DNA of 47,646 nt from Bacteroidota bacterium (lineage in GTDB: Bacteria; Bacteroidota; Bacteroidia; Bacteroidales; Lentimicrobiaceae), in the NCBI GenBank assembly GCA_009773515.1, contig WSXX01000033.1:1-47646 (forward strand), given 5' to 3'. This document shows positions 2,012-18,215 of the stretch, in pieces. The number at the start of each line of letters is the position of its first letter. Position 1 is the first letter of the stretch. Below the pieces are notes generated by a model that made no database searches, was not told where the DNA came from, and worked only from the letters and a program-made list of their open reading frames with translations. The position numbers and the translations under genes are program-made.

Positions 2012-4957
2012 TTATTCCACAATTATCTCATCCACAAAAATATAAGCCTGACCACCCGCACCCAGATGCCATTGGGGAATGGTGCCGAAATTCAAGGCTT
2101 TTACTTTGATGTATCTACCGGAAACATTCACTTTTGAACCCAAATCATTGACGTGCATTTCGTAATCGTCAGCCGCTACCTGATTTTTTATGTTGGCAAT
2201 CTCTTTGAAATTTATCCCGTCATCAGAAATAAAAAAGGAAACTTCTTTTGGCATCCATATCCAGGAACGAACATCCTGAATAAAGCCTGCCGCCACCCTG
2301 CGAACCGGTTTTTTACTTCCCAGGTCAACTATGGCTTCAAAATCGGTTCCCTGATATCCCTGCCATCCGCCTAAGCGCCAGTTACCGGCGCCGCGCAATC
2401 CGTCAATCAGGGCTTCAGGGCCACCGGCACTGTAGTTTTGCTGATATTCAGATTTTAGTTCTACGGAACGGGTTACATCAATTTTTGTAAAATTTCCTTC
2501 AATATAATTGCTGTAGCCGATTCCTTCTTTCCAGGCAATGGCTTTCAGCGTTGTGGTTTTGTCGAGAATAACCGGCGCGGTATAGCGTGTTGAATTGCGA
2601 TCGGGAGCTGAACCATCCAATGTGAAGTATATTTCACAATCGGGAACTATGGTGCCGATAGTCACCGGCATTGGCTCTTTAATTCTTGAATCTTTGGCTT
2701 CAAGGTAAGGAACCGGCAGAATCAACTCTTCACCAATGTGTGTCACCGGTTCATTTCCTTCTCCCACACCCCAGCTTTCGTTGGGTTTGCTGCCCATTTC
2801 GAAAACAAGATGCCCGCCATTCATTATGTCGTTGTGCAGAATGTACGACTTTGGATATGCTTCCCCGTTCAGGGTAACCGACTGAACATAACAATTCTGC
2901 TTTGAGACCTTATTGGCAGTAATTTTAAATACTTTTCCGTTCTCAAGATTGATTTCCATTTCAGGAAACCACGGTGTGCCGATAACGTATTCAGGCTGTC
3001 CCGGTGTAACCGGATAGAAACCCATTGCACTCATTATCAGCCATGCCGACATTTGTCCGCAGTCTTCGTTGCCGATAAGTCCATCGGGTTGAGGGGTATA
3101 AAATTCATCCATAATCTGACGCACACGCTGCTGTGTTTTCCAGGGTTGCCCAACAAAATTATAGAGGTAAGCCATGTGATGGCTGGGCTCATTGCCCTGC
3201 GCGTACTGACCGATAAGTCCGGTTATGTCTTTCATATCGCGGCCACCAACTTCAACCTCTGTGTTGAAAAGTTCGTCAATCTTTGCGGCAAGTTTGTCTT
3301 TGCCGCCATGCAGTTCGTAAAAACCGGTAACATCCTGAGGCACATAGTAACTGTAATGATACGAATTGGCTTCGGTAAAATGCCAGTCAACCGTGGTTGG
3401 ATCAAAAGGGGTGAGCCAGCTGCCGTTCAGTCGCGGGCGCATAAATCCTGTGGTTGGATCAAAAATATTTTTGTATGACTGAGCCCTGCGCATGTATTCA
3501 CGGTAAATTTCTTCGCTGCCCAAATCTTTGGCCATTACGGCAACACACCAGTCATCGTAAGCATATTCAAGTGTTTTTGAAATAGATTCATGCTCTTTGT
3601 CGCCCGGAATATAACCATACTTTTTGTAAACATCGAGTCCGAAATGATCCTGAGCAGCGCTGTGAACCATGGCTTCGAGGGCTTTATTTCCGTCGTAACC
3701 GCGGATGCCTTTCATCCATGCATCGGCAATTACTGAAATGCCATGGTTTCCGATCATACACCAGGTTTCGTTTCCGGCAAGCTCCCAAACAGGAAGCAAA
3801 CCACCTTTATCATACATATTGAGCATGGTTTTTACAAAATCATTGGTGCGCTCCTGTTCAATGATGGTCATCAATGGATGCCAGGTGCGGTAAGTATCCC
3901 ACAATGAAAAAACGGTGTAGTTTGTGAAATCCTCTGCAGTGTGGATATTTCTGTCCATTCCCCGGTATCTGCGGTCAACATCCATAAAAGTATTGGGTTG
4001 CAGAAAGGCATGGTACATGGAAGAATAAAAAACCTTGTTCTGATCTTTGTCTCCACCTTTAACCTTGATTTTGCTTAACTCCTTATTCCATGTATCCTGA
4101 CTTTGTTTCCTTATTTCATCAAAATTCCATCCGGGAATTTCGGCTTTCAGGTTTTTGTAAGCTCCGTCGGAATCGACCGCCGAGAGTGAAACTTTAACTT
4201 CGATCTGCTCCCCGGCTTCTGTTGAAAAACCGACAAAAGCCTTGATGTTGGTCCCTTCTGCGCGCTGAATTGCCTCCTGTAAAGTATCGTTAATTGCAAT
4301 TCCTTTGCGGGAAAATGGCTTTGAGAACTCCATATGGAAATACCAGACCATATCCTTTGCCCAATTGGTTGAGCGGCGCATTCCGCGGATTTCGGTATCG
4401 CTCACAAATTCAATCCATGATTCCAGCACATGATCGCGGTGCTGAAGGTCGATGATCAGGTTTGCCGCTTCGGAAGCAGGGAATGTATAACGGTGGTAAC
4501 CAACCCGGGTGGTGGCTGTAAGTTCGGCCAGAACATCGGGTTTGTCAAGTTTTACACTGTAATATCCGGCTTCAGCTTTTTCGTTTTCTTTGCTGAAAGG
4601 TGAACTGTATTCCGTGTTTTTAAACACCGGGCTGCCAACCACAGGCATCACAAGAATATCGCCATAGTCACTGACACCCGTGCCATTCAGGGCAGTATGA
4701 GCAAAGCCATACATAACGCTGTCGGTGAAATGATAACCTGAGCAGCCATCCCAGCCATCGAGCCGGGTTTGGGGGCTGAGTTGCACCATGCCAAAAGGAA
4801 CGGTTGCTCCCGGGTAAGTGTGGCCATGTCCGCCGGTTCCGATAAACGGATCAACATACGATACCGGCTCTCCGTTTTCTGCAGCTTTATCACAGCCCGA
4901 AAGCATAAAAAATGCCATTGACAGAACGAAAAGAAATGTGTTTTTTCTCATATTCAA
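2012..4957 (-). CDS. GH92 family alpha-mannosidase lipoprotein with C-terminal CHB_HEX_C and F5/8 C domains
   Basis: A 981-residue protein. Residues 1-22 form a lipoprotein signal with lipobox LSGC (Cys22), so it is anchored in an outer or periplasmic membrane. Residues about 30-760 are a GH92 catalytic region: YVDPFIGTGGHGHTYPGA near the start, GNEPSHHMAYLYNF, and IGNEDCGQMSAW, which holds the conserved Asp of the family. Residues about 775-845 resemble the chitobiase/hexosaminidase C-terminal domain (IYFTLDGSAPDRNSTRYTAPV). The last 135 residues resemble an F5/8 type C (CBM32-like) sugar-binding domain. GH92 enzymes are exo-acting, calcium-dependent alpha-mannosidases, many of them active on N-glycans. 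The gene follows lacI by 45 bp on the same strand and is probably co-transcribed with it. An alternative start at Met3 changes little. Confidence 0.95.
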   Translation of the reverse strand: MNMRKNTFLFVLSMAFFMLSGCDKAAENGEPVSYVDPFIGTGGHGHTYPGATVPFGMVQLSPQTRLDGWDGCSGYHFTDSVMYGFAHTALNGTGVSDYGDILVMPVVGSPVFKNTEYSSPFSKENEKAEAGYYSVKLDKPDVLAELTATTRVGYHRYTFPASEAANLIIDLQHRDHVLESWIEFVSDTEIRGMRRSTNWAKDMVWYFHMEFSKPFSRKGIAINDTLQEAIQRAEGTNIKAFVGFSTEAGEQIEVKVSLSAVDSDGAYKNLKAEIPGWNFDEIRKQSQDTWNKELSKIKVKGGDKDQNKVFYSSMYHAFLQPNTFMDVDRRYRGMDRNIHTAEDFTNYTVFSLWDTYRTWHPLMTIIEQERTNDFVKTMLNMYDKGGLLPVWELAGNETWCMIGNHGISVIADAWMKGIRGYDGNKALEAMVHSAAQDHFGLDVYKKYGYIPGDKEHESISKTLEYAYDDWCVAVMAKDLGSEEIYREYMRRAQSYKNIFDPTTGFMRPRLNGSWLTPFDPTTVDWHFTEANSYHYSYYVPQDVTGFYELHGGKDKLAAKIDELFNTEVEVGGRDMKDITGLIGQYAQGNEPSHHMAYLYNFVGQPWKTQQRVRQIMDEFYTPQPDGLIGNEDCGQMSAWLIMSAMGFYPVTPGQPEYVIGTPWFPEMEINLENGKVFKITANKVSKQNCYVQSVTLNGEAYPKSYILHNDIMNGGHLVFEMGSKPNESWGVGEGNEPVTHIGEELILPVPYLEAKDSRIKEPMPVTIGTIVPDCEIYFTLDGSAPDRNSTRYTAPVILDKTTTLKAIAWKEGIGYSNYIEGNFTKIDVTRSVELKSEYQQNYSAGGPEALIDGLRGAGNWRLGGWQGYQGTDFEAIVDLGSKKPVRRVAAGFIQDVRSWIWMPKEVSFFISDDGINFKEIANIKNQVAADDYEMHVNDLGSKVNVSGRYIKVKALNFGTIPQWHLGAGGQAYIFVDEIIVE

Positions 4958-5002: not shown

Positions 5003-6043
5003 TCAGTTTTTCATGAATCTGACTGAAGACTCTCTTACAATCAGATCAACCGGAAGCATCACAGACCATTCACCCGGCGGAACCGGGGTTCCCTGAATCT
5101 GTTTCAGCAAAAGATCAAAAGCACGTTTACTGATGAGATCAACGGGCTGCTCAACCGCTGAAACCGAGGGCCGGGTGAAGTCAAAATAAAGCACATCGTC
5201 AAATCCAACTAGCGCAACCTGAGAAGGAACCGAAACCGATAATTTTCCTAGATACTTCAGACAAAGTGATGTGAGATTATTGTTGAGCGTAAAAATTGCA
5301 TCAGGCAATATGCCGGCATGGTGCAGGCTGTTAAGATTCTCCTTTACGGCTTCCTCAATGTTGTTGAACGGCGCTTTGATAATCCATTCATCCGGAATTG
5401 TAATTCCCTGTTTGTCAAGCTCAGACTGAAAGCCGCCAATGCGTTCGTTGATGGTGGAGATGTGTTCAGGAGTGATTCCTATGGTTGCAATTTTTCTGAA
5501 TCCCTGAGAAAGAAGATGGCGGGCTGCAAGTCTGGCACCTCCAAAATTATCTACAGAAACATTTGCCGATTTCATACCGGGGAAAGTCCTGTCGATCAGC
5601 ACATGAGGCACACCAGCATCAAAAAGCTGATTAAAGTACGATGCATCTTGCATAGATGAAGAAATTATCAGCCCATCCACTTTGCGATTGCGAAGCAAAC
5701 GAATCTGAGCTTCTTCTTTTTCAATGTTTTCTTCGGTGCTGCAAATCACAACACTATATCCCTGATTCCAGGCATAATCCTCTATTCGTCTGGCAATACG
5801 GGAATAAAAAAGGTTGGATATATCTGATACAATCAAACCAATGGTTTTTGTCACTCCGGTGCGAAAACCCCGCGCAAGCACATTCGGCTGAAAATTCATC
5901 TCCAGCACTTTTTCCCTTACCTTTTGCTGTGTTTGTTTGCTGATGCCATGCGCGTCGGCTTTGTTGTTAATCACAAGCGACACAAGTGTTTTTGATACCC
6001 CGAGAGATGCAGCAATATCAGATAATTTGACTTTTTTTGCCAT
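5003..6043 (-). CDS. LacI/GalR family transcriptional regulator
   Basis: A 346-residue protein with the classic layout: an N-terminal helix-turn-helix (VKLSDIAASLGVSKTLVSLV, residues 5-24), a hinge region containing FQPNVLARGFRTGVTKTIGLIV, and a periplasmic-binding-protein-like effector domain to the end. These proteins bind palindromic operators with a central CG and are released, or occasionally recruited, by a small sugar. It sits between the GH29 and GH92 genes. Its own promoter carries the palindrome at 6079-6092, and a near-identical site lies in the susC promoter, so it is the likely local regulator, autoregulated and controlling glycan import. The effector cannot be read from the sequence. 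Regulation of a SusCD locus by LacI rather than by a hybrid two-component system or an ECF sigma factor is less common. Confidence 0.95.
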   Translation of the reverse strand: MAKKVKLSDIAASLGVSKTLVSLVINNKADAHGISKQTQQKVREKVLEMNFQPNVLARGFRTGVTKTIGLIVSDISNLFYSRIARRIEDYAWNQGYSVVICSTEENIEKEEAQIRLLRNRKVDGLIISSSMQDASYFNQLFDAGVPHVLIDRTFPGMKSANVSVDNFGGARLAARHLLSQGFRKIATIGITPEHISTINERIGGFQSELDKQGITIPDEWIIKAPFNNIEEAVKENLNSLHHAGILPDAIFTLNNNLTSLCLKYLGKLSVSVPSQVALVGFDDVLYFDFTRPSVSAVEQPVDLISKRAFDLLLKQIQGTPVPPGEWSVMLPVDLIVRESSVRFMKN

Positions 6044-6059: not shown

Positions 6060-6067
6060 CAAAGATA
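6060..6067 (-). promoter_or_regulatory. -7 box of the lacI promoter
   Basis: On the minus strand the sequence is TATCTTTG, an exact TAnnTTTG match, 17 bp upstream of the lacI ATG. The expected -33 region falls in or next to the operator-like palindrome at 6079-6092. Confidence 0.6.
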
Positions 6068-6078
6068 AACACTTTTAA

Positions 6079-6092
6079 CTAAAACGATTTAG
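6079..6092. promoter_or_regulatory. Putative LacI operator in the lacI promoter
   Basis: CTAAAACGATTTAG is a 14-bp palindrome with arms CTAAA/TTTAG and a central CG, the usual form of LacI-family operators. It covers the -33 region of the lacI promoter, so binding would repress lacI and the GH92 gene behind it. It differs at one base from the site at 13038-13051. Confidence 0.7.
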
Positions 6093-6133: not shown

Positions 6134-7957
6134 TTAATCAATTCCTTCTATCCTGAAAGTCCAGGCATGATGACCAGGCATTTCGTTGTACGAAACAGCA
6201 CTCAGGTCAATCTGAAGAAGACCATTCTGATGTTTCCAAGGGAGTGACTCTTCGCGGCCGAGCAGACTTATTTTTGATCCTGCCGGTGGTTGAGGAACAG
6301 GCAACAACAGTTTATTGCCCGGCCATTCAAAACAAACAGCATATAAGTTGTTGTGGTTGCGGGTATATGCAATATATTGCCGCTCTGACTTATACAAACC
6401 ATTCAGCCCATCACCTTGAGTTAACCCGGCTTTTGTAAACAGATTTTTCTGAGGAATCACTTCTTTGCCAAGAGATTTGCTTTCCCACGACAGCGAAATG
6501 GATGCATTCTGAACATCTTCGCGAAATTCAACTTTTATGGAATAGAATTTCCCCTTCTCCATGCTCACTTTGCCGGTTGCAGATGATGCTTTTGCTTCGC
6601 GCATGGCTTCTGAATCGGTGCCTTCAGTAACAGTTTCCCATTGATCGAGAACAAGTTTTCCGTCAATGTAAAGACGCATTCCATCGTCAGCCACAGCTGA
6701 AAAAGAAAATTGCTCTGAAAAATCAGGTTTGATGAACCCGGTCCATTCGGCTGTAAAGTGATCTTCAATAACCGGATAACCCGGTGAATTACGAACCCAG
6801 TTAAAATTAACCTGAGCATCAGTCCGTTCAAGTCTGACAGGCTTGTTTTCCCCGCTTTTTTTCCACTGCTTTGCTCCGTAAATTGCTTCACCATTAATTT
6901 CAAGCCATTTGCCAAGAGATTCTATTCTTTCCTGCTGAAGCAGCGGAATTTTTCCATCAGCAGCAGGACCCACATTAATAATCAGTCCACCGCCATAAGC
7001 TACTGTTCTGACAAAGAGGTGAATGAGTTCTTCAGATGTCATATATGCTGATAGCTTTTCATTGCGGTTGAGCCCGAACGAACGCCCAAGCCCACGAACC
7101 TCTGCCCAAGGCCGGTCGGTATCTAATCCTCCCGAACTGTACTCAGGTGTTTTAAACCCGATATCGGCGCCGTGTCCCCAACGATCATTTACTATTGCAT
7201 CGGGGCCAACCAGATTATAGTACCATGAAATCAGTTCACGGGCATGCCAGTCTTCGGCAGAGTTAAACCATTCGCCATCGGTAAAAATAAGATCGGGGCG
7301 GTAAGCTTCAACCACTTCTTTGTATTGTGGAATCATATGCTGCTCAACATAGTTTTTGATGGAATCATCAGGATCTTCGTACCATTTGTGAAGCGGGTGA
7401 CCCCATTCAGGAAGCGAATAATAAAGCCCGAAACGGATATTTTTCTTCCTTACTGCCTCTGAAATTTCGCCAACAAGGTCACGTTTTGGGCCGACATCCA
7501 TGCTGTTCCATCCGGGTGCATATTTGCTGGGCCACAGGCAGTATCCGTCGTGATGTTTCGAAACAAGCACAATATAACCTGCTCCTGACTTGCTGAAAAT
7601 CTCTGCCCATTCGTCTGCATCAAAAAGCTCTGCTTTGAATAAAGGAGCAAAATCACGGTAGGTAAAATCATCGCCGTAATTTTTTTTCATAAAATCAATA
7701 CGGTTTTGAGCCCCTGCCTGAAGTCCGCGCAGATACCATTCGGCATATGACTCAGCGCCACCATATGAGGGCACAGAGTAAACACCCCAGTGGATAAAAA
7801 TACCCAGTTTTGCATTGGTAAACCATTCAGGATAGGGCCTGCTGCGAAGCGATTCCCAACTGCTTTCAACACTTTGGTTCTGTGCTTTCAACCCTGCTGA
7901 AATCAGCAGCAACATGATAAGAAGAACTGTTTTCCGGAATTTAATCGCTTTATTCAT
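6134..7957 (-). CDS. GH29 alpha-L-fucosidase with PA14 domain
   Basis: A 607-residue exported protein with a Sec signal peptide ending in LKAQ. Residues about 40-350 are the GH29 barrel: PEWFTNAKLGIFIHWGVYSVP near the start, SKHHDGYCLW in the middle, and LIFTDGEW, where Asp227 fits the family nucleophile. A PA14 domain at about 390-495 (FSFSAVADDGMRLYIDGKLV) lies between the barrel and the C-terminal beta domain, and may bind glycan or direct the enzyme to its substrate. GH29 enzymes release alpha-linked fucose with retention of configuration. The gene is transcribed in the same direction as lacI and GH92 but has its own promoter, and it diverges from the hydrolase gene at 8183. Together with GH92 it suggests a fucosylated, mannose-containing substrate. 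Confidence 0.94.
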   Translation of the reverse strand: MNKAIKFRKTVLLIMLLLISAGLKAQNQSVESSWESLRSRPYPEWFTNAKLGIFIHWGVYSVPSYGGAESYAEWYLRGLQAGAQNRIDFMKKNYGDDFTYRDFAPLFKAELFDADEWAEIFSKSGAGYIVLVSKHHDGYCLWPSKYAPGWNSMDVGPKRDLVGEISEAVRKKNIRFGLYYSLPEWGHPLHKWYEDPDDSIKNYVEQHMIPQYKEVVEAYRPDLIFTDGEWFNSAEDWHARELISWYYNLVGPDAIVNDRWGHGADIGFKTPEYSSGGLDTDRPWAEVRGLGRSFGLNRNEKLSAYMTSEELIHLFVRTVAYGGGLIINVGPAADGKIPLLQQERIESLGKWLEINGEAIYGAKQWKKSGENKPVRLERTDAQVNFNWVRNSPGYPVIEDHFTAEWTGFIKPDFSEQFSFSAVADDGMRLYIDGKLVLDQWETVTEGTDSEAMREAKASSATGKVSMEKGKFYSIKVEFREDVQNASISLSWESKSLGKEVIPQKNLFTKAGLTQGDGLNGLYKSERQYIAYTRNHNNLYAVCFEWPGNKLLLPVPQPPAGSKISLLGREESLPWKHQNGLLQIDLSAVSYNEMPGHHAWTFRIEGID

Positions 7958-8072: not shown

Positions 8073-8105
8073 TTGTTGAAAAATATAAACTGAATACTAT
8101 CTTTG
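8073..8105 (+). promoter_or_regulatory. Promoter of the 8183-12968 operon
   Basis: TTG occurs twice at 8073-8078. A 19-bp spacer after the second copy leads to TATCTTTG (8098-8105), an exact match to the Bacteroidota -7 box. The start codon at 8183 lies about 75 bp further on. No LacI-type palindrome overlaps it, so this operon may be controlled differently from susCD. Confidence 0.65.
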
Positions 8106-8182
8106 CATCTGAATCGGTGTACCTGATTAATTAATCAGATTCTTCAGGATTTTGCCAGTTCAATAATCAGAAAATCGTTGCC

Positions 8183-10693
8183 ATGAAAAAATATCCCCAC
8201 AACCTTTTACTTTTGCTTGTTACAGCCTTGTTCAGTCTGACATCAAGTGCACAGAAAACCGGAAATATTGTTGAAATATTCGGGAAAGAAAAAATAGAAA
8301 ACACAAGCGAAGGCACAGTAATTCACACATTCAGTGATGGATTGGTTCTTCGCAAAGGAGTTGTCCCCGGGCTTATCAATGGATACAACGACATTGTTTT
8401 CTGGCAAATGGCAACCGGAAAATTTAGATCACCCGTGGCAGGACAGACGATTGAAAACCTGTTTTCAGGGCAGGCTGAGGGCAGTGAACTGAAGTGGGAA
8501 TCCACAAAGGTTGATTCAACCGGTGTTTTTAAAGATAATCTCAGCCGTTCATTGTTATATACCAGTTTTGAATCGCCGCAAAGCACTATTGCGCTGCTTG
8601 ACGCTACCGGTCACACCAGGGTTTACGTGAATGGCTTGCCGCATGAAGGCGATCATTATGACTACGGATATACCCTTATTCCTTTCAGGCTGAAAAAGGG
8701 GATGAATGAGATTGTTTACACTTACGGCCGCTTTTCGCGATACAGCGCAAAAATTGTTATCCCTGATAAAGAGATTTTTTTCACCAGCCGCGATATGACA
8801 TTGCCTTCAGTGCTTCGCGATGAAAATGAAGTACGCTGGGGCGCTGTAAGAGTAATTAACGCAACCGAAAAAAACCTTAAAGGGTTCAGTCTGGAATGCC
8901 GTTTTGCTGATGGAAGTATTGCCGGCACTGAATTGGATAATATAATTTCACTTACCACACGAAAGGTAAAATTCAGGATACCGGCCTTTAAATCAATGCC
9001 TTCAGCAGATACAATCACTGCCGAACTTATCCTGAAAGATGCTTCCGGCCGCGAAATTGACCGCACGATCATTACCCTGAATGTAAAGGAAAGCAGCCGG
9101 CATCACGAAAGAACTTTTGTAAGCAGAATTGATGGAAGCATTCAGTATTTTTCTGTTGCTCCTTCGCTCAGCAGCGAAGAAGGGCAATCGCTGGTGCTGA
9201 CGGTTCATGGAGCTTCGGTTGAGGCTACCAATCAGTCAAGGGCATACAAACAGAAAGATTGGGCACACATCGTTGCGCCGACAAATCGCCGTCCGTTCGG
9301 ATTCAACTGGGAAGAATGGGGCCGTATTGATGCATTGGAAGTTCTGTCTGAATCAAAGAAAATCTACAAAACCCATCCTCAGAAAACCTATCTCACCGGT
9401 CACTCCATGGGTGGACATGGCAGTTGGTTTCTCGGAGTTACCTATCCCGATCACTGGGCAGCCGTTGCTCCTTGCGCCGGTTACCCCGATATTACAGGAT
9501 ACAGGCGTTCAGGGCCGGATAGCGCATTAAAACAGAATCCGCATTTTGGCATGATGGAACGTGGAGCTTCTGCCGGACGGGTTTTCAACCTTGCCGGAAA
9601 TTATCTGCAGTCCGGAATTTATATCCTTCACGGAAGTGCCGATGCAGTTGTACCTGTTGAACAAGCCCGTAAAATGAGAGAACTGCTGGGCGGATTTCAC
9701 AACAACTTCGCCTATTATGAATACCCCGGAGGATCTCACTGGTATGGCGATCACAGCGTGGACTGGCCTCCGCTGTTTGATTTTATGAAACAAAACACCA
9801 TTCCTGAAACATCAGAAGTTGATAGCCTTTATTTTTCAACCGCAGCACCTGCTGTTTCGGCAACAAACTACTGGATAAGGGTAAATCAGCAGGAAAAACA
9901 GTATGAGACATCGGCAATAAAAGCCATCAGAAAATCAGACACAACCCTGGTTAATCCTGAAAATATCAGAAGTTTCAGCCTGCTTTTCGGGAAGTATAAT
10001 ATACCTGAGCCGGCATTTGTTCATGTTGAGAATCAAACAATAAAACCAACATCAGCAGGTGATATTCATTTGCAGAAAGTCGGACATGAATGGAAGGAAA
10101 TCTCTGAAATCAACATGTCAGAGAAACATCCTGACCGTCAGGGTGGATTTAAGCTGGCTTTTGACAATAATGTTGTTTTTGTTTATTCAACTCAGGGAAA
10201 CAAATCAAGCAATGAATGGTACCTGAATAAGGCGCGTTTTGATGCTGAAACCTTTCTTTACCGGGGAAACAGCTCGGTTGAAATAATTCCTGACAAGGAA
10301 TTTTCGCCCGAAAAGTATAAAGACAGAAATGTGATTCTTTATGGAAATTCAGTAAACAACAGTGCCTGGAAACAATTGCTTGGACATTGCGAAATCAAAG
10401 TCACCGACAAGGAAATTATTTTCGGCAATAAAACATTCACCGGCACCGACCTTGGCACCTTCTTTATTTACCCAAGGGCCGATAGTCACACTGCATCGGT
10501 AGGTGTAGTTGCCGGAACCGGAAATGAAGGCATGAAGTCGCTCTACCCGAATGACTATTTTTCAGGCATTACCGGTTTTCCTGATCTTATGATTTTTGAT
10601 GTAAACTGGCTAAAGGATAATCCCCGGGGAATAAAAGTATCGGGGTTTTTCGGAAACGACTGGAAAATTGAAACCGGAGAATTTACTGAATAA
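8183..10693 (+). CDS. Exported alpha/beta hydrolase (prolyl oligopeptidase/esterase type), multidomain
   Basis: An 836-residue protein with a signal peptide ending near SSAQ. Residues about 25-320 are beta-rich with no family I recognise. Residues about 330-530 are an alpha/beta hydrolase: the nucleophile elbow GHSMGG puts the nucleophile at Ser408, HGSADAVVPVEQ gives Asp487, and YPGGSHWYGDHS gives His519, a full catalytic triad. The remaining 300 residues are unassigned. The fold is shared by S9-type peptidases and carbohydrate esterases such as acetyl-xylan or feruloyl esterases. In a polysaccharide locus, removal of an acyl group from the glycan is the more likely role (inference). It is the first gene of a three-gene operon, 15 bp ahead of the next. 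Confidence 0.85.
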   Translation: MKKYPHNLLLLLVTALFSLTSSAQKTGNIVEIFGKEKIENTSEGTVIHTFSDGLVLRKGVVPGLINGYNDIVFWQMATGKFRSPVAGQTIENLFSGQAEGSELKWESTKVDSTGVFKDNLSRSLLYTSFESPQSTIALLDATGHTRVYVNGLPHEGDHYDYGYTLIPFRLKKGMNEIVYTYGRFSRYSAKIVIPDKEIFFTSRDMTLPSVLRDENEVRWGAVRVINATEKNLKGFSLECRFADGSIAGTELDNIISLTTRKVKFRIPAFKSMPSADTITAELILKDASGREIDRTIITLNVKESSRHHERTFVSRIDGSIQYFSVAPSLSSEEGQSLVLTVHGASVEATNQSRAYKQKDWAHIVAPTNRRPFGFNWEEWGRIDALEVLSESKKIYKTHPQKTYLTGHSMGGHGSWFLGVTYPDHWAAVAPCAGYPDITGYRRSGPDSALKQNPHFGMMERGASAGRVFNLAGNYLQSGIYILHGSADAVVPVEQARKMRELLGGFHNNFAYYEYPGGSHWYGDHSVDWPPLFDFMKQNTIPETSEVDSLYFSTAAPAVSATNYWIRVNQQEKQYETSAIKAIRKSDTTLVNPENIRSFSLLFGKYNIPEPAFVHVENQTIKPTSAGDIHLQKVGHEWKEISEINMSEKHPDRQGGFKLAFDNNVVFVYSTQGNKSSNEWYLNKARFDAETFLYRGNSSVEIIPDKEFSPEKYKDRNVILYGNSVNNSAWKQLLGHCEIKVTDKEIIFGNKTFTGTDLGTFFIYPRADSHTASVGVVAGTGNEGMKSLYPNDYFSGITGFPDLMIFDVNWLKDNPRGIKVSGFFGNDWKIETGEFTE

Positions 10694-10708: not shown

Positions 10709-11830
10709 ATGCGCTGTGTGATCATAATATTATTGCTGAATATTCTGGGAATTGAAGGGAATGCTCAGTTGATTCTGCTTGAAAATCCTCCCCGGAACTA
10801 CGTTTGTTACCGAAGCAGCGGTGAAATTCAAATGGATGGACAATTGAACGAAACGTGCTGGAAAAATGTCCCGTGGACGGATAATTTTACCGACATAGAA
10901 GGCGGGCTAAAACCAGCGCCTTATTACCGGACAAGGGTGAAAATGCTTTGGGATGACAACTACCTTTACATTGCAGCAGAGCTTGAAGAACCGCACATCT
11001 GGGCAACTTTCACCGAAAGGGAGTCTGTAATTTTTCACGAAAATAATTTTGAAGTTTTCATTGATCCTGACGGAGATACCCACAATTATTATGAGTACGA
11101 AGTCAATGCACTTGGCACCGAATGGGATCTTATGCTTACCAAACCTTACCGTTTTGGTGGACTTCCGATAAGTGCGTGGGACATAGCCGGCATGAAAAAA
11201 GGAATTTACCTAAATGGCAGCTTAAATGATCCTTCGGATACTGACATCAGCTGGACAATTGAAATGGCTTTTCCCTGGAAAATACTGGCTGAGGCCGCTC
11301 CATATTTAAGCAAACCCGAACCCGGAAATCAATGGCGGATAAACTTCTCGCGGGTACAGTGGAAACTCGATGTTGCAGACGGAAAATACCGCAAGAGCAT
11401 AAATCCGGAAACAGATCGTTCGTTTCCTGAATACAACTGGGTGTGGTCTCCGCAGCATACCATAAATATGCATAAGCCTGAGTATTGGGGTTTTGTGCAG
11501 TTTTCAGAAAATCAGGCAGGAACCGAAAAGGAAGCGTTCAGGAATGATCCCGATTTCAAAATAAGAGTTATTCTGCGCGAATTGTTTGACCAGCAATACA
11601 AATATATGCATAAGCATAACCGTTTCGCTGTATCTGCACAGGAATTGAAAATCAGCGCCGAAATGTTTGCCGGCATAGAAGTCACTTTTGAAGCATCTGC
11701 CAAAAGGTTTATGCTGTCAGCAGTTTCGTCAGAAGAGGGATTCCGGTGGTTTATTACCGAAGACAGCAGAATCTGGAAAGCCAAAGACAACATCCCGCGG
11801 GAAATTTTGCCCGGACACTATAATCATTAA
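10709..11830 (+). CDS. Exported carbohydrate-binding family 9-like protein
   Basis: A 373-residue protein with a short signal peptide (cleavage near GNAQ). The pattern IQMDGQLNETCWKNVPWTDNF, followed by VKMLWDDNYLYIAAELEEP and an ENNFEVFIDPDGDTHNYYEYEV segment, is characteristic of CBM9-like domains, with several exposed Trp and Tyr residues. Such proteins bind sugars at the surface of carbohydrate-degrading Bacteroidota; catalysis is not expected. It lies 15 bp after the hydrolase gene and 25 bp before the GH10-like gene, so it is probably translated from the same mRNA. The roughly 110 C-terminal residues are not covered by the recognised domain. Confidence 0.85.
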   Translation: MRCVIIILLLNILGIEGNAQLILLENPPRNYVCYRSSGEIQMDGQLNETCWKNVPWTDNFTDIEGGLKPAPYYRTRVKMLWDDNYLYIAAELEEPHIWATFTERESVIFHENNFEVFIDPDGDTHNYYEYEVNALGTEWDLMLTKPYRFGGLPISAWDIAGMKKGIYLNGSLNDPSDTDISWTIEMAFPWKILAEAAPYLSKPEPGNQWRINFSRVQWKLDVADGKYRKSINPETDRSFPEYNWVWSPQHTINMHKPEYWGFVQFSENQAGTEKEAFRNDPDFKIRVILRELFDQQYKYMHKHNRFAVSAQELKISAEMFAGIEVTFEASAKRFMLSAVSSEEGFRWFITEDSRIWKAKDNIPREILPGHYNH

Positions 11831-11855: not shown

Positions 11856-12968
11856 ATGAAACGCAGAAACTTTGTAAAGAAACTTGGAATGGCGGGTCTG
11901 GGATTTGCCGCAGTCAATACATTCGGATTTCCTGTTTTCGCAGAAAGCCATGACAAAAATTTCAAGAAGTGGATATGGATTACACCCGAAGCTGATCTGC
12001 CTGCCGAAGAGTGGAAATCAAGATTCAGGCTGATGAAAGAACATGGAATACATGGCGTAATGGCTCAGGTATATGGCAGTCATAAAGCTTTGTACCCTTC
12101 TGCGTTTTTGCCGGTTGAAGCCGATGTACTCAGCACATTGATTGAAGCTGGCCGTGAAAATGGCATTGAAGTTCATGCATGGATGTGGACAATGCCCAAC
12201 AACAACCCATTCTATATTGAAAACCATAAAAAGTGGTATGTAGTCAACCGGCTCGGGCAACCGGCTCACTCCCACCCTGCTTATGTGGGATATTACCGGT
12301 TTATGTGTCCGAATCAGCCCGGAGTGCAGGAGTTTTTGCAACGAAATGTCAGAGAACTTTCAGCGATTGAAAATCTTGATGGAGTGCACCTTGATTATAT
12401 AAGGTATCCTGATGTGATTCTGGCCGAAGCACTTCAGCCGACATATAATATAGTTCAGGACAAGGAATATCCAGAATATGATTATTGTTATTGCGGGGTA
12501 TGCCGGCAAAAGTTCAAAGATCAAACAGGACTGGATCCGTTAACAGATATGGCAGAACCTGCCGAAAGTGAACTCTGGAGACAATTCAGGTACGATTCTG
12601 TAAGCAATCTGGTAAACAATATTCTTGCTCCTGAAATCAGGAATGCCGGAAAAATATCATCGGCAGCTGTATTTCCAAACTGGGAAAGTGTAAGACAACA
12701 GTGGAGTCAATGGGATCTTGATGCATATTTCCCGATGCTATATCATAACTTTTACAATGAAGGGCCGGAATGGATAGGCGAACAGCTCAGCCTTCAAATA
12801 AGTTTACTGAAAAAACCTGCGCCGGTTTATGCCGGATTATTTCTCCCGTCGCTTACACCCGAAGAATTGGCAAAAACCCTCTCTATTATCAGAGAATCAG
12901 GTGGTTTGGGGTATTCTGTGTTTGCTTATCATAATATTACTGAGGAGCACTGGAAAATAATGAAATAA
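11856..12968 (+). CDS. Exported family-10-like glycoside hydrolase (GHL10/DUF187 type)
   Basis: A 370-residue protein. The N-terminus MKRRNFVKKLGMAGLGFAAV has the twin-arginine form of a Tat signal, so it may be exported folded. The rest has a TIM-barrel pattern of the GHL10-like superfamily: KWIWITPEADLPAEEWKSRF, IHGVMAQVYG, GIEVHAWMWTMPNNNP, and LDGVHLDYIRYPDV, with conserved Asp and Tyr residues at a strand end. A CYCGVCR segment contains three cysteines, possibly a structural metal site. Members of this superfamily act on glycans or peptidoglycan-like substrates, but few have been tested. It is the last gene of the 8183 operon and is followed by the susC promoter. Confidence 0.8.
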   Translation: MKRRNFVKKLGMAGLGFAAVNTFGFPVFAESHDKNFKKWIWITPEADLPAEEWKSRFRLMKEHGIHGVMAQVYGSHKALYPSAFLPVEADVLSTLIEAGRENGIEVHAWMWTMPNNNPFYIENHKKWYVVNRLGQPAHSHPAYVGYYRFMCPNQPGVQEFLQRNVRELSAIENLDGVHLDYIRYPDVILAEALQPTYNIVQDKEYPEYDYCYCGVCRQKFKDQTGLDPLTDMAEPAESELWRQFRYDSVSNLVNNILAPEIRNAGKISSAAVFPNWESVRQQWSQWDLDAYFPMLYHNFYNEGPEWIGEQLSLQISLLKKPAPVYAGLFLPSLTPEELAKTLSIIRESGGLGYSVFAYHNITEEHWKIMK

Positions 12969-13033: not shown

Positions 13034-13066
13034 TTTGCTAAAACGGTTTAGTTTTTACTATTTTTG
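13034..13066 (+). promoter_or_regulatory. susC promoter with operator in the spacer
   Basis: TTTG at 13034-13037 and TATTTTTG at 13059-13066 are -33 and -7 boxes separated by 21 bp. The palindrome at 13038-13051 fills most of the spacer, so a bound LacI protein would exclude RNA polymerase. The leader to the ATG at 13173 is about 100 nt. Confidence 0.7.
13038..13051. promoter_or_regulatory. Putative LacI operator in the susC promoter
   Basis: CTAAAACGGTTTAG matches the site upstream of lacI (6079-6092) at 13 of 14 positions and has the same CTAAA/TTTAG arms with a central CG. Its position between the -33 and -7 boxes points to repression. Confidence 0.72.
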
Positions 13067-13172: not shown

Positions 13173-16100
13173 ATGCGAAAATTGTTTTTACTTTTTTGCC
13201 TTGTACTGGGATTAACAGCCTCCAGCCTTTATGGTCAGGATCTCAGTATTACAGGTACGGTAACCAGCCAGGATGACGGATTAAGTCTTCCGGGAGTTAC
13301 AGTGGCAGTTAAAGGAACCTCTATCGGAACCACGACAGATGTAAATGGAAAATTCAGTATCCGTGCTGCGCAGGGAGCTGTTCTTCAGTTTTCATTTGTG
13401 GGAATGGTTAAACAGGAAGTGACTGTGGGACAGTCGAATGTAATAAATGTATCTATGGCTTCCGGGGCTTTGGGCCTTGATGAAGTAGTAGTAACAGCAC
13501 TCGGTATCAAACGCGAGAAAAAGTCGCTCGGTTATGCGCTTCAGGATATTCAGGCTGATGAACTGATATCGTCGCGTGAGTCAAATGTGGGCAACGCCTT
13601 AACCGGAAAAGTTGCCGGTTTGCAGGTAATTCGTTCAAGCAATGGCCCTGCCGGATCATCAAAGATTATTCTCAGGGGACAAAGTTCGCTCACAGGCGAC
13701 AATCAGCCGTTGATTGTAGTTGACGGGCTTCCGCTCAATAACTTTACAGGCCGGGAGAACAACGACTACTGGAACCCTTCACTTGACATGGGTAGTGGTA
13801 TCGGCGACATCAATCCGGATGACATTGAAAGTATCTCAGTGCTCAAAGGAGCTTCAGCAGCAGCACTTTACGGGTCAAGGGCAGGTAATGGTGTAATTTT
13901 AATCACCACGAAAAAAGGTGCCAGAAAGCCCGGACTGGGAATCACTTTCTCTTCCACTTTCGGAACTGAATCTGCATTTATACATCCTGAAATGCAGGAC
14001 AATTTCGGACAGGGAGTTGCCGGAGAATATGACAACCGCTCAAATCTGAGCTGGGGCCCGGCCATCACCGGCCAAACCCTTGAAAACTGGAATGGTGTTG
14101 AAAAACCACTTGCTGCCTATGACAATGTAGGTAACTTCTTCGATCGCGGAACTTCACAGAATTACAACCTCTCATTCCAGCAGGAATTTGACAATACATC
14201 TGTATTTACTTCGCTATCGCGCAGCAACGACAAAAGCATTATTCCTGGTGCAGAACTAACAAAAACCAACCTGACAACCAGGGCATTCAGCAAATTCGGC
14301 AACAATCAGAAATGGTCTATCGATGCCAAAGTTCAATACATGAATGCAGAAGCAAAAAACAGACCGCTGCTCGGACATAATTATTCGAACCCCTTCTTTA
14401 CCATGTACCTGATGCCACGCAGTCTGGATATCACTGAATTTGAAAACTCAGTAGATGAAAGTGGCAAAATGATATGGTACGGCGGAAGCAATCAGATTAA
14501 TCCTTACTGGACATCAAAGTATGCACAGAACACCGATAGTCGCGACCGCTTCCTGCTTTACAGCTCTCTGAAACACACGTTCAATAACTGGCTTTCAGCA
14601 GAGATCAATGCAGGTTCAGATATCTATACCACCAATAATGAGTCGAAACGCTACTCCGGAAGTCCGATTGATCCGAACGGAAATTACAGCATGGGAAAAG
14701 AAACCTTTTTTGAGCACAACTTCAGCACCCTTTTTACCGCCAAAAAAGACAATCTATTCTCAAAAGTAGGTGCTACTGCTTCGGTTGGAGGAAACATCAT
14801 GGATCAGGAATTTTCAAGCATAAGATCCAGCTCGGGTGAACTTGAGGTGCCTAACCTCTTTGCACTGAACAATGGCAAAACCAGTCCAACTGTTGATGAA
14901 AGGTTTTATCAGAAACGAATTTTATCGGCATACGGAACATTGCAGTTGAACTGGGATGGTTATCTGTTTGTTGACGGAAGTCTTCGTAACGACTGGTCAT
15001 CTACCCTGAGTGAGGAAAACCGTTCTTTCGTATATCCTTCGGTAAGTGCCTCATTTGTGGTTACCGATATGCTTGAAAAATTTAATACCAACGTACCTGC
15101 CTGGATTACATTTGCCCGTGTACGCGCATCTGTAGCAAAAGTTGGTAACTCATTGAATCCTTATGAGTTGTATAACACATACAGAATTGGAAACGACCCA
15201 CTGGGTAATACTACCGGTACTACCAACGATATACTCTTCGATCCGAATGTACAGAGCGAACTTATTACATCGCGTGAGTTAGGCGCCGATATTCGCTTTT
15301 TCAATAACAGATTGGGATTTGATTTTACCTGGTACAAATCGAATGCTACCAATCAGTTGCTTAACCTGCCGATGGATCCATTAAGCGGCTACCGTTTTAT
15401 GAAAATCAATGCCGGCGATATTCAGAACAAAGGTATTGAGTTGATGGCTCATGCAAGAATACTTGAAAACTCCAAAGGACTCAACTGGGCGATACAGTTC
15501 AACTATTCGAAAAACAAGAACACAGTTGAAGAGCTTACCGATGAGATAGAGACTTATCAGATTGGTGGATTTGACAACATGCAGATTCTTGCTGAAACCG
15601 GACAAGACTATGGTATGATTTACGGAACCAGTTACCTGAGGGTAGAAGACGAAACCAGTGAATTTTTCGGACAGATGGTTCTGGATGCCAATGGTTTACC
15701 CTTGGTCAACCCTGATCCTGTTTCATTTGGAAGTCAGCAGCCCAATGCTCTGATGGGCATCACCAACACATTAACTTACAAAGGAATTGCTTTTAGCTTT
15801 ATGTTTGATGGCCGTTTCGGAGGATATATCTTTTCACAGACCAATCAGGCCATGCAGCTTGCAGGAACTGCAGCAATTACAGCACCTGATGGTCAGCGCA
15901 ACGACCTTGTAGTTAGCGGAGTTATTGACAATGGCGATGGAACTTACCGTGCAAACGATGTTTCCATAACCCGAGAGCAATACTGGACATCAGTGGCCGG
16001 AACCGGAAACCTTGGAATTACTGAAGCCAATGTATACGACGCAACCAATGTAAGGTTAAGGTACATCAACCTGAGCTACGACCTTCCGCGTAAACTGCTT

Positions 16101-16286
16101 GCAAAAACTCCTGTTCAGGGTGTAAAGGTAGGCATGACAATGAATAATGTCTGGTTGATCAAGAGCAATCTTAACGGAGTTGATCCTGAGTCGGTTTATG
16201 CCACAGGAACTAACGCCCTCGGTTTCGAAAATGCTGCACCGCCATCAAACAAGACATTTTTGTTCAACTTAAGTGTATCATTCTAA
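13173..16286 (+). CDS. SusC/RagA family TonB-linked outer membrane transporter
   Basis: A 1037-residue protein starting at the ATG at 13173, which gives the signal peptide MRKLFLLFCLVLG...YGQ. The frame also extends upstream to a TTG at 13035, but that lies in the promoter and operator and is rejected. After the signal comes a carboxypeptidase-D-like regulatory domain (ITGTVTSQDDGLSLPGVTV, about 26-105), the LDEVVVTALG segment, a plug (NALTGKVAGLQV, LIVVDGLPL, SISVLKGASAAALYG), and a long beta-barrel ending in a terminal aromatic (FNLSVSF). SusC proteins form the TonB-driven pore under a SusD lid and import oligosaccharides into the periplasm. susD follows after 12 bp. Confidence 0.96.
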   Translation: MRKLFLLFCLVLGLTASSLYGQDLSITGTVTSQDDGLSLPGVTVAVKGTSIGTTTDVNGKFSIRAAQGAVLQFSFVGMVKQEVTVGQSNVINVSMASGALGLDEVVVTALGIKREKKSLGYALQDIQADELISSRESNVGNALTGKVAGLQVIRSSNGPAGSSKIILRGQSSLTGDNQPLIVVDGLPLNNFTGRENNDYWNPSLDMGSGIGDINPDDIESISVLKGASAAALYGSRAGNGVILITTKKGARKPGLGITFSSTFGTESAFIHPEMQDNFGQGVAGEYDNRSNLSWGPAITGQTLENWNGVEKPLAAYDNVGNFFDRGTSQNYNLSFQQEFDNTSVFTSLSRSNDKSIIPGAELTKTNLTTRAFSKFGNNQKWSIDAKVQYMNAEAKNRPLLGHNYSNPFFTMYLMPRSLDITEFENSVDESGKMIWYGGSNQINPYWTSKYAQNTDSRDRFLLYSSLKHTFNNWLSAEINAGSDIYTTNNESKRYSGSPIDPNGNYSMGKETFFEHNFSTLFTAKKDNLFSKVGATASVGGNIMDQEFSSIRSSSGELEVPNLFALNNGKTSPTVDERFYQKRILSAYGTLQLNWDGYLFVDGSLRNDWSSTLSEENRSFVYPSVSASFVVTDMLEKFNTNVPAWITFARVRASVAKVGNSLNPYELYNTYRIGNDPLGNTTGTTNDILFDPNVQSELITSRELGADIRFFNNRLGFDFTWYKSNATNQLLNLPMDPLSGYRFMKINAGDIQNKGIELMAHARILENSKGLNWAIQFNYSKNKNTVEELTDEIETYQIGGFDNMQILAETGQDYGMIYGTSYLRVEDETSEFFGQMVLDANGLPLVNPDPVSFGSQQPNALMGITNTLTYKGIAFSFMFDGRFGGYIFSQTNQAMQLAGTAAITAPDGQRNDLVVSGVIDNGDGTYRANDVSITREQYWTSVAGTGNLGITEANVYDATNVRLRYINLSYDLPRKLLAKTPVQGVKVGMTMNNVWLIKSNLNGVDPESVYATGTNALGFENAAPPSNKTFLFNLSVSF

Positions 16287-16298
16287 AAGCAAAGGAAC

Positions 16299-18215
16299 AT
16301 GAAACGATTTATAAAATTATTCACCGTATTGTTTGCAGGCAGCTTGCTATTCAGCGCATGCCAGAAGGATTTCCTCGATGTTAATGTTGACCCGAAAGCA
16401 GCCAATGCCGATCAGGTTCAGGTTGAGTATTTCCTCAATTCCTCCATCACCGGCACTCAGATGGATCCTCATGTGGCCGAACGTGCTTATGTTTTGTACT
16501 GGAAAAATGCCGGAAGGCAGCACCGTTCAAACGGATCACTTGCACTTGGCGCCTATAACGATGGCTGGAGCTCAGATTATTACTCCTACCTTTCAGGTTG
16601 GCTCAAAGATGCTACCAATGCAATTAATGTTGCTGAACTGAAAATTGAAAACGGCACAGAATTTCCATACACCAACAATATGAAACAGGTTGCCCGCATC
16701 TGGCGTGTTTACCTGATGAGCGAGTTTACCGACAATTTCGGCCCAATGCCAATTGATGGATTTCAGGGTGAAAATCCGGAATTTAAGGATGTTAAAACCG
16801 TTTATGAATTCATGCTTAACGAGCTGAAAGATGCAACCTCAAAGATTGATGTAACCATCACTTCAGTGGATGCAGCCCGATTTGACAAAGCTTACGGATT
16901 TGATTATTCAAAATGGATAAAATACGGCAACTCAATGAGATTGAGACTTGCTATGCGCCTTTCGGAAGTTGAGCCAGCTTTTGCAAAAACCGAATTTGAG
17001 CAGGCTGCAGCCGGAAATAACCTGATCCTGACTTTTGACGAAGCTTTTAAAATTGCCGAAAGAGATGGTGGATGGGATGCCCTTTCACCAGTAATGTCGA
17101 GGGAATGGAACACTCAGCCCCTTTCATCAACCATGAGCAATCTTTACATTGGACTTGGTGGAGTTGCTTCAGCAGATCAGTTGCCGGCAAGTATTCACAG
17201 TTACATAAAACCGGCTGACTATATGGGTATAAAGTACGAAAACCATTTCGGAACTGTAACCAACGATCCTTCAGCAGGTTTCTGGTATGATGGTTTGCCC
17301 AACGCCATGGACCCAAGGGCTTACAAAGCCTTTATTCTTCCCGGTTGGTTTGACAATCCGGATTTCTGCACCTGGCCTTCATGGACTCAGGATGCTTTCA
17401 ACACACAGCGCGACCTGATACAACTTAACAGCGATGATGTATTGGTTACCATTAATGCCGCTTATACCTGGAATGCATTTTGTCTGGGCAACTGGGGCGA
17501 CAAAGGGCCTAAAAATCAGATAGCAACTTTTCTGGGAACCCTGCCACGCATGAGCCAGAAATACAGAAGTGCCAGCGAGCGCGTTTTCTTCGCACCATGG
17601 GAAACATACTTCCTGTTGGCTGAGGCTTCAGTTCGGGGTTGGGCTACTCCTGTTGATGCAAAAACTGCCTACGAAAGCGGCATTGCAGCAAGCTTTCAGT
17701 ATTTTGGTGTAGAGGGACATCTGGGCCAGTACCTGAGCTCTGAAGCTTACAACCGCGCAGGAACATCGGTAAGTTTCGACCATACTGCCGAACCTCCTGC
17801 AACAGTAAGCATGAGTTATGTTGATGGTTATACCCAGCAGGCCGGCACTTACACATTCTCTTACCCAAAAAATACTCTGTATCAGGGTGGAGCTGTAAGT
17901 AATGATCTTCTCACCAAAATCATTACCCAGAAATACATTGCTCAGTTCCCATGGTTGCCGCTGGAAGCGTGGAACGATCACCGCAGGCTTGGTTTGCCAT
18001 TCTTCGAAAATCCTTCCATCGAATTGCCGATACAAACACTTCCTGACTTAAACACAGGAAACTATATGCAGAGCAAAGTAAGCTTCTTCCCTCAGCGACT
18101 GAAATATCCATCAAGCCTTGAAAACAGCAACCCGGCTGGTTACCAGCAAGGATTGTCGTTCCTGGGCGGTGCTGATGAAGTGCTTACTCCGCTGTGGTGG
18201 GCTAAAAAACAATAA
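16299..18215 (+). CDS. SusD/RagB family nutrient-binding outer membrane lipoprotein
   Basis: A 638-residue protein with a lipoprotein signal (lipobox FSAC, Cys21) followed by QKDFLDVNVDPKAANA, the usual opening of SusD-like proteins. The helical body with TPR-like regions (KWIKYGNSMRLRLAMRLSEV) and the C-terminal EAWNDHRRLGLPFFENP segment fit the SusD-like_2 type. It is the surface lid of the SusC pore and gives glycan specificity. At 638 residues it is longer than the typical 500-550, with inserts in the middle. It is translated directly after susC and followed by two hairpins, so the pair is probably a two-gene transcript controlled at 13034-13066. Confidence 0.95.
   Translation: MKRFIKLFTVLFAGSLLFSACQKDFLDVNVDPKAANADQVQVEYFLNSSITGTQMDPHVAERAYVLYWKNAGRQHRSNGSLALGAYNDGWSSDYYSYLSGWLKDATNAINVAELKIENGTEFPYTNNMKQVARIWRVYLMSEFTDNFGPMPIDGFQGENPEFKDVKTVYEFMLNELKDATSKIDVTITSVDAARFDKAYGFDYSKWIKYGNSMRLRLAMRLSEVEPAFAKTEFEQAAAGNNLILTFDEAFKIAERDGGWDALSPVMSREWNTQPLSSTMSNLYIGLGGVASADQLPASIHSYIKPADYMGIKYENHFGTVTNDPSAGFWYDGLPNAMDPRAYKAFILPGWFDNPDFCTWPSWTQDAFNTQRDLIQLNSDDVLVTINAAYTWNAFCLGNWGDKGPKNQIATFLGTLPRMSQKYRSASERVFFAPWETYFLLAEASVRGWATPVDAKTAYESGIAASFQYFGVEGHLGQYLSSEAYNRAGTSVSFDHTAEPPATVSMSYVDGYTQQAGTYTFSYPKNTLYQGGAVSNDLLTKIITQKYIAQFPWLPLEAWNDHRRLGLPFFENPSIELPIQTLPDLNTGNYMQSKVSFFPQRLKYPSSLENSNPAGYQQGLSFLGGADEVLTPLWWAKKQ

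Follow-up and report, generated by a model that had tools for sequence, protein, structure and literature searches.

A predicted LacI-type operator shared by the lacI-GH92 and susCD promoters of a Lentimicrobiaceae genome and recurring across Bacteroidota

The window, by which we mean the whole analysed stretch of 47,646 nucleotides from a member of the Lentimicrobiaceae, contains a PUL with adjoining susC and susD genes together with glycoside hydrolases. Its nine annotated genes and the associated putative regulatory elements are the following.

2012-4957, minus strand: GH92 alpha-mannosidase (Pfam GH92, E 3.8e-191; TIGR01180), 45 nt downstream of lacI
5003-6043, minus strand: LacI-family regulator of 346 aa (Pfam LacI, Peripla_BP_1/3), with recognition helix VSKTLVS and hinge ARGFRTG
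6060-6067, minus strand: putative -7 element of the lacI promoter, TATCTTTG, 11 nt downstream of operator 1
6079-6092: predicted operator 1 (O_lacI), CTAAAACGATTTAG, 35 nt ahead of the start codon of lacI
6134-7957, minus strand: GH29 alpha-L-fucosidase carrying a PA14 domain, located upstream of lacI
8109-8122, no strand assigned: candidate third operator, degenerate, CTGAATCGGTGTAC, just downstream of a TATCTTTG box at 8098-8105 and before the esterase operon
8183-10693, plus strand: esterase-like enzyme (Pfam Esterase / Peptidase_S9)
10709-11830, plus strand: CBM9-like carbohydrate-binding protein (domain annotation)
11856-12968, plus strand: GHL10/GHL6-like putative glycoside hydrolase (domain annotation)
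13034-13037, plus strand: putative -33 element of the susC promoter, TTTG, retained in genome G006 and TTAC in genome G011
13038-13051: predicted operator 2 (O_susC), CTAAAACGGTTTAG, within the -33/-7 spacer of the putative susC promoter
13059-13066, plus strand: putative -7 element of the susC promoter, TATTTTTG
13173-16286, plus strand: SusC, TonB-dependent glycan importer (TIGR04056, E 2e-190; Plug, CarbopepD_reg_2)
16299-18215, plus strand: SusD, surface glycan-binding lipoprotein (Pfam SusD-like)
18407-20779, plus strand: glucosamine-6-phosphate-deaminase-like (NagB-like) protein of 790 aa (NCBIfam PRK02122, below cut-off)

The regulator belongs to the LacI/GalR family, with PF00356 and PF13377/PF00532 above cut-off and phmmer matches to the PurR, CcpA and LacI structures. 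Solved structures nearest to the GH92 protein include alpha-1,2-mannosidases, and the closest solved structure to the GH29 protein by sequence is 7pls, named tissue alpha-L-fucosidase. GH29, lacI and GH92 follow one another on the minus strand; operator 1 separates GH29 from lacI, and lacI and GH92 presumably form one operon. The start of susC was set at 13173 rather than at the TTG at 13035. For the deaminase-like protein there is no Pfam match at 0.001, and its gene adjoins susCD in G006 and G011 and lies near susC in G389. SusC carries no STN-type domain (E 0.001), and ECF/anti-sigma control of the locus was set aside, as no ECF sigma or FecR-type anti-sigma gene is found among the nine annotated genes. 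An N-glycan utilization locus would combine a releasing enzyme (PNGase/GH18/GH85) with exo-glycosidases that trim the core. The same nine genes include GH92 and GH29 but no releasing enzyme; PNGase F, GH2, GH20, MFS permease and ROK kinase genes are likewise absent among them.

A preliminary description of this DNA had proposed that lacI and susC share a palindromic operator. Both sites lie where it placed them, share 13 of 14 bases, contain a central CG and are each self-complementary at 12 of 14 positions. Operators of the LacI family are described as mostly even palindromes with a central CG (PMC4052901), and both sites are of this kind, being even, centred on CG and located at or near the promoter of a target. 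We searched the own genome, an assembly of 5,034,399 bases in 67 contigs with 97.2% completeness. The pattern CTAAANCGNTTTAG matches in exactly two places, both in the window, while the reversed control pattern gives 0 matches and about 0.47 would be expected genome-wide by chance at the base composition of the window. The genome scan for extra copies that had been suggested earlier thus finds no spread to unrelated genes. One extra copy with a single mismatch, on another contig (C3:2703), was set aside as an operator because it lies within a long ORF. With up to three mismatches, the motif shows no enrichment in the own genome: it has 177 forward and 202 reverse matches, while the reversed control has 643 and 618. 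The signal thus rests on near-exact copies, and with these matches below control we do not claim a wider regulon from a looser motif. In the window alone, up to two mismatches yield 4 strand-matches against 1.6 expected, and 12 of 100 shuffles reach 4. This within-window excess is weak, and the significance of the motif stems from the genome-wide and comparative tests.

Within the genus, a LacI orthologue is found in two of the 18 genomes sampled, G006 (80% identity) and G011 (71%). Conservation in related loci, on which the proposal was to be judged, is seen in these two genomes: in each, lacI and susC are both preceded by a site, and no third site occurs. All nine genes of the locus are contiguous in G006; in G011, GH29-lacI-GH92 and susC-susD-NagB-like lie on two contigs, both stopping at the break, which leaves the esterase operon out of view. 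Three-way alignments of the own genome with G006 and G011 keep 13 of 14 columns in operator 1 and 12 of 14 in operator 2; the corresponding figures for the flanks are 32 of 78 and 40 of 107. Among the 16 same-genus genomes that lack the LacI orthologue, G015 has one site and the other 15 have none. Of 13 genomes of the genus that were searched for the SusD orthologue, the same three (own, G006 and G011) have it.

The sequence CTGAATCGGTGTAC at 8109-8122 differs from CTAAANCGNTTTAG at 3 positions, and matches of that quality occur at chance level. Its aligned counterpart in G006 is CTAAATCGTTTTAC, with one mismatch. We keep this position as a candidate third operator, convincing in G006 and degenerate in the window. 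The proposed small regulon of lacI(-GH92) and susCD is strongly supported by rarity, conservation and co-occurrence, with the reservation that its size may be slightly larger through 8109-8122.

The motif extends far beyond the genus. A scan of contigs from 84,980 species with a 12-orthologue alignment gave at least 562 relatives, of which the best 80 loci were retained; these were found by peptide patterns that included the recognition helix VSKTLVS[LM]V. Sites were counted within 250 nt upstream of lacI. Among these best 80 of at least 562 loci, 46 carry an exact site upstream of lacI, 9 further loci a site with one mismatch (55 of 80 with at most one) and 10 a site with two. Shuffles give no exact site, 0.1 one-mismatch sites and 1.3 two-mismatch sites per 80 loci, and the reversed pattern upstream of lacI in the same best 80 gives 0, 2 and 6, respectively. 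In total 55 exact sites occur across the 1.21 Mb of these best 80 loci, and 46 of them fall upstream of lacI. L116, from the cultured relative Perlabentimonas gracilis, is among the loci with the operator ahead of lacI. The search pattern itself fixes twelve columns of the site profile; the only informative features are two absences, that of G at the first N and that of C at the second (0 of 46 in each case).

Motif and regulator also co-occur. Among 393 genomes of the order, the motif is present in 25 of 36 genomes with a strong orthologue and in 15 of 357 without (Fisher p 7e-21, at an orthologue cut of E 3.3e-126 or better that was chosen after the list was seen), and in a first genome sample it is present in 10 of 11 orthologue genomes compared to 9 of 137 others, own genome excluded (p 9e-10); since the genomes are related, these p-values overstate independence. 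With a cut-off of 1e-70 instead, the numbers are 32 of 103 and 8 of 290 genomes. The 25 motif-bearing orthologue genomes carry 16 family labels. In the 10 genomes of the first sample, the site lies upstream of lacI in 8, at the start of a PNGase F gene preceding lacI in G145, and in G056, as its sole site, on a contig other than that of lacI. Both genome samples and the 80 loci overlap: L098 is G006, L100 is G011, L106 is a contig of G374 and L104 is taken as a contig of G389. Second sites upstream of susC occur in five further genomes (G323, G389, G374, G184 and G378). Operator and regulator thus co-occur, with the operator upstream of the regulator and of pathway genes, as is the definition of a regulog. 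We conclude that the shared palindrome is very probably a real on/off switch, the predicted operator.

The association has exceptions. No exact site is present in 11 of the 36 strong-orthologue genomes, and in 25 of the best 80 of at least 562 loci the closest sequence upstream of lacI departs from the motif at more than one position. In L105, L117 and L118, which lack a site upstream of lacI, GTAAATCGATTTAG precedes the GH20 gene that heads a GH20-lacI cluster, and some other loci that lack a CG-centred site upstream of lacI have a changed operator centre. Some second sites lie within ORFs (e.g. in G041, L208 and L224), others next to genes unrelated to glycans, such as uvrB (L217), TamB (L213) and lipoate ligase (L222). 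ORFs in the relatives were taken as the longest non-overlapping ones; the lacI frame of L104 was missed in this way, though it is open by similarity search.

The recognition helix VSKTLVS is invariant across the 12 orthologues of alignment A2. A few of the best 80 of at least 562 loci vary in it, and the conservation among the 80 is partly selected, since the peptide patterns included this helix. In LacI and PurR a hinge leucine inserts at the central base step of the operator. The hinge of the window protein (residues 57-63, ARGFRTG) has phenylalanine instead of the expected leucine. This phenylalanine is found in all 26 loci with at least 53% identity (among the best 80 of at least 562), and those of them in which an operator was found retain the CG centre. 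A CG centre goes with leucine as well as with phenylalanine hinges. Five loci (L167, L168, L169, L174 and L176) have an ALR hinge and CTAAA-N-TT/AT-N-TTTAG upstream of lacI, with the half-sites kept, and L141 combines an AT centre and one half-site mismatch with a GLR hinge. Hinge residue and operator centre appear to change together in some lineages. The five ALR loci may be a single clade and reflect one evolutionary event.

The placement of the sites relative to the promoter bears on the mode of action. Bacteroidota promoters have the consensus TTTG at -33 and TAnnTTTG at -7. The preliminary description had operator 2 filling the spacer of the susC promoter, and this arrangement holds, with TTTG at 13034-13037, the operator at 13038-13051 and TATTTTTG at 13059-13066. 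Among the 46 exact-site lacI promoters, TAnnTTTG follows the operator at a distance of 5-13 nt in 32 and within 40 nt in 33, while an upstream control stretch contains it in 2 of 46. Of 8 distinct susC promoters, 6 have the element downstream as well, at a distance of 6-9 nt. A TAnnTTTG just downstream of the operator suggests repression, and since a bound dimer would cover promoter DNA, repression by occlusion is the likeliest mode.

The neighbouring genes in the relatives point to the substrate. Recurrent neighbours among the best 80 of at least 562 loci are an MFS permease of the gluP/fucP/NagP kind, ROK kinase, GH2 with a mannosidase domain, GH92 and GH20. Genes of N-glycan type near lacI or the sites comprise PNGase F, GH92, GH2 with Mannosidase_ig, GH20, GH95, GH35, BNR/sialidase-like proteins and L-type lectin. 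By BLAST with a reference set, the 55 loci with at most one mismatch include 36 that have GH92, GH20, GH2 or PNGase F within 7 kb, compared to 9 of the remaining 25, the comparison being made within the set of 80. In L104, GH20, alpha-galactosidase, GH35, BNR sialidase-like and GH95 genes precede the operator, and MFS, ROK, GH2 and GH92 genes follow behind lacI. Where lacI is arranged with susC, a PNGase F gene follows susD in all three loci examined (L137, L157 and L162); in L106, susC-susD and then a PNGase F gene lie ahead of lacI. G389 has the operator before a susC (65% orthologue of the window SusC), with PNGase F beside it and the NagB-like gene near. A site precedes a PNGase F gene in G107 and a BD-FAE esterase in both G107 and G208, and GH29 and GH20 lie near lacI in L107, L108 and L110. 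Ten of the 55 site-bearing loci have none of GH92, GH20, GH2, PNGase F, GH29 or SusC within 7 kb by BLAST with the reference set; one of these, L134, has a GH38 mannosidase.

Two sets of relatives have unusual neighbours. L119 has an exact operator and a lacI of 65% identity, next to genes for aldehyde ferredoxin oxidoreductase and a class II aldolase, with no glycan genes among the neighbours examined. L112 and L154, whose LacI orthologues fall with that of L119 in the 60-65% identity range, have gene sizes like those of L119; the operator is kept in L119 and L154 and absent in L112. L-type (legume) lectin proteins preceded by the operator are encoded at L144:11204-13270, L151:5006-7042, L153:11236-13620 and L219:3041-5899. 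Those of L144, L151 and L153 are tagged for type IX secretion, from MAGs titled Flavobacteriales. It is possible that these lectins bind N-glycans at the cell surface.

The characterised PNGase enzymes covered in PMC10154615 act on N-glycans only, which makes an N-glycan regulon the best reading. The gene neighbourhoods of the relatives thus suggest a regulon directed at N-glycans. The window contains no PNGase F, GH2, GH20, permease or kinase gene among those annotated, and the N-glycan assignment therefore comes from the relatives. In the genus of the window, the regulon seems reduced to lacI-GH92 and SusCD, with the esterase operon as a possible third part, which leaves the substrate less certain there.

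LacI control of a SusCD locus had been called unusual in Bacteroidota. This view does not hold, as lacI-susCD pairs recur and are also present elsewhere in the own genome. In 11 of the best 80 of at least 562 loci, lacI is directly followed by a susC-like gene, and 8 of these 11 have a site with at most one mismatch upstream. The own genome has two LacI-family genes (Pfam PF00356). The second, at C13:31762-32754 (L094:9760-10770, minus strand), is divergent from another susC, and tandem GCAAACGATTGC-like palindromes lie between the two at L094:10771-11288. Its candidate operator GCAANCGNTTGC occurs in 17 places in the own genome compared to 1 for the reversed control, which suggests a separate, larger regulon of the second LacI. 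In published work, LacI genes are reported within xylan PULs of Gramella flava (PMC5306329), and the beta-1,4-xylan TonB-dependent systems of Bacteroides ovatus, Prevotella bryantii and Xanthomonas campestris are described as regulated by LacI-family proteins or hybrid two-component systems (PMC12125979), which means that LacI control of importers of this type has precedents. In the full-text literature searched, including PMC11278836 and PMC12915301, we found no description of a LacI regulon for N-glycans in Bacteroidota; such a search covers subscription papers weakly. The regulator is of an ordinary kind, put to a use that is not described in the literature searched.

Taken together, we consider it highly probable that CTAAAHCGDTTTAG is the operator of the LacI protein encoded at 5003-6043, which would repress lacI-GH92 and susCD and be released by a sugar. 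The sites, their rarity, conservation, promoter placement and gene neighbours come from the computation, while binding, repression as opposed to activation, the N-glycan substrate and the inducer are inferred. In the absence of inducer, a repressor dimer would sit ahead of the -7 element at the lacI-GH92 promoter (autoregulation) and within the -33/-7 spacer at the susCD promoter, and would block RNA polymerase. Oligosaccharides trimmed from eukaryotic N-glycans, or mannosides, would enter the cell, and a mannose- or GlcNAc-containing sugar would bind the periplasmic-binding-protein-like domain and cause the repressor to leave. Its release would induce SusCD and GH92, perhaps also the esterase-CBM9-GHL10 operon and GH29. 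The regulator belongs to a group that is conserved in Bacteroidota and has the same operator before lacI, susCD, PNGase F, GH92 or lectin genes.

The operator might be real and the regulon of this genus nevertheless serve another fucose- and mannose-bearing glycan of plant, algal or microbial origin, the N-glycan role having been lost as the regulator relocated to this locus. The gene content of the window would fit this: GH29, GH92, an esterase, CBM9-like and GHL10-like proteins are present, and PNGase F, GH2, GH20, MFS and ROK genes are missing among the nine. The operator-bearing susC of G389 nevertheless lies beside PNGase F and near the NagB-like gene, on a contig (taken as L104) that also has lacI, MFS, ROK, GH2 and GH92 genes, and GH29 and GH20 occur near lacI in L107, L108 and L110. 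We regard another glycan as a minority possibility, rather unlikely but to be kept in mind. Still less likely is that the LacI protein activates susCD and GH92 or acts in both directions. Dual regulators exist in the LacI family, e.g. Cra/FruR and CcpA, but the operator here is inside or against the core promoter (32 of 46 for lacI, 6 of 8 for susC), where a dimer would block the polymerase.

Binding of the sites by a different regulator is very improbable. The obvious candidate is the second LacI of the own genome, as many LacI-family proteins bind palindromes with a central CG and this gene also adjoins a susC. Its recognition helix, ISPSTVS, differs from the VSKTLVS of the window LacI and it has its own candidate motif GCAANCGNTTGC, on which grounds we ruled it out as the controller. 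Moreover, of the 16 same-genus genomes that lack the orthologue, 13 keep another LacI relative (1e-30 or better), and the motif is present in just one of the 16. That the two 14-mers are chance AT-rich palindromes is scarcely credible. The rarity of the motif at up to three mismatches relative to the control and the weak excess within the window would be in keeping with chance; the exact or nearly exact recurrence of the sites at both positions in other genomes, and in dozens of lacI promoters, is not, and chance was rejected on genome-wide rarity, conservation upstream of lacI and co-occurrence of motif and orthologue. Repression of lacI-GH92 and susCD by the window LacI through the shared operator is thus the reading that we retain.

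For the wider group we propose, as a likely reading of the comparative data, a previously undescribed LacI regulog for N-glycan foraging across Bacteroidota in which CTAAA-N-CG-N-TTTAG would coordinate PNGase F at the surface, L-type lectins, import by SusCD, exo-glycosidases acting in sequence, and sugar uptake and phosphorylation, with apparent co-change of hinge and operator centre in some lineages. SusCD loci are usually assumed to be under hybrid two-component or ECF systems. For a poorly studied, mostly uncultured part of Bacteroidota, the analysis predicts a regulator, its operator and a set of targets that together make up a regulon apparently directed at N-glycans, and this regulon claim is better supported than the sequence of the window alone could show. 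As the operator is short and nearly exact, it can be used as a tag for further candidate N-glycan genes, e.g. the L-type lectins, and such a tag can suggest functions for neighbouring genes.

The nearest functional analogue is ManR (BT2103) of Bacteroides thetaiotaomicron, which is described as controlling an oligo-alpha-mannosidase/SusCD operon together with cytoplasmic mannose use (PMC3878776). Both ManR and the window regulator are one-component regulators of monosaccharide type. ManR, however, belongs to the GntR family and has orthologues in 3 of 11 Bacteroides genomes (PMC3878776), whereas the window regulator is a LacI-family protein, and its group has the palindromic CTAAA-N-CG-N-TTTAG operator and is found mostly in MAGs titled Bacteroidales or Bacteroidetes. 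HTCS_Man, for alpha-mannan in B. thetaiotaomicron, also controls mannosidase and SusCD genes, but it is a hybrid two-component system with direct-repeat sites (PMC3878776), in contrast to the LacI-type regulator and palindromic operator of the window. KdgR, UxaR, UxmR and UxuR of Bacteroides are members of the LacI family that were likewise predicted by comparative genomics; they serve uronate pathways (PMC3878776, PMC4052901), while the window group is linked to N-glycan/mannoside genes and susCD. Outside Bacteroides but within Bacteroidota, a LacI regulon is predicted for UxuR2 of Algoriphagus marincola (PMC5507952). Its loci concern galacturonate and glucuronate and include a TRAP-family transporter and GH109 (PMC5507952), unlike the window locus with its GH92 alpha-mannosidase and SusCD importer.
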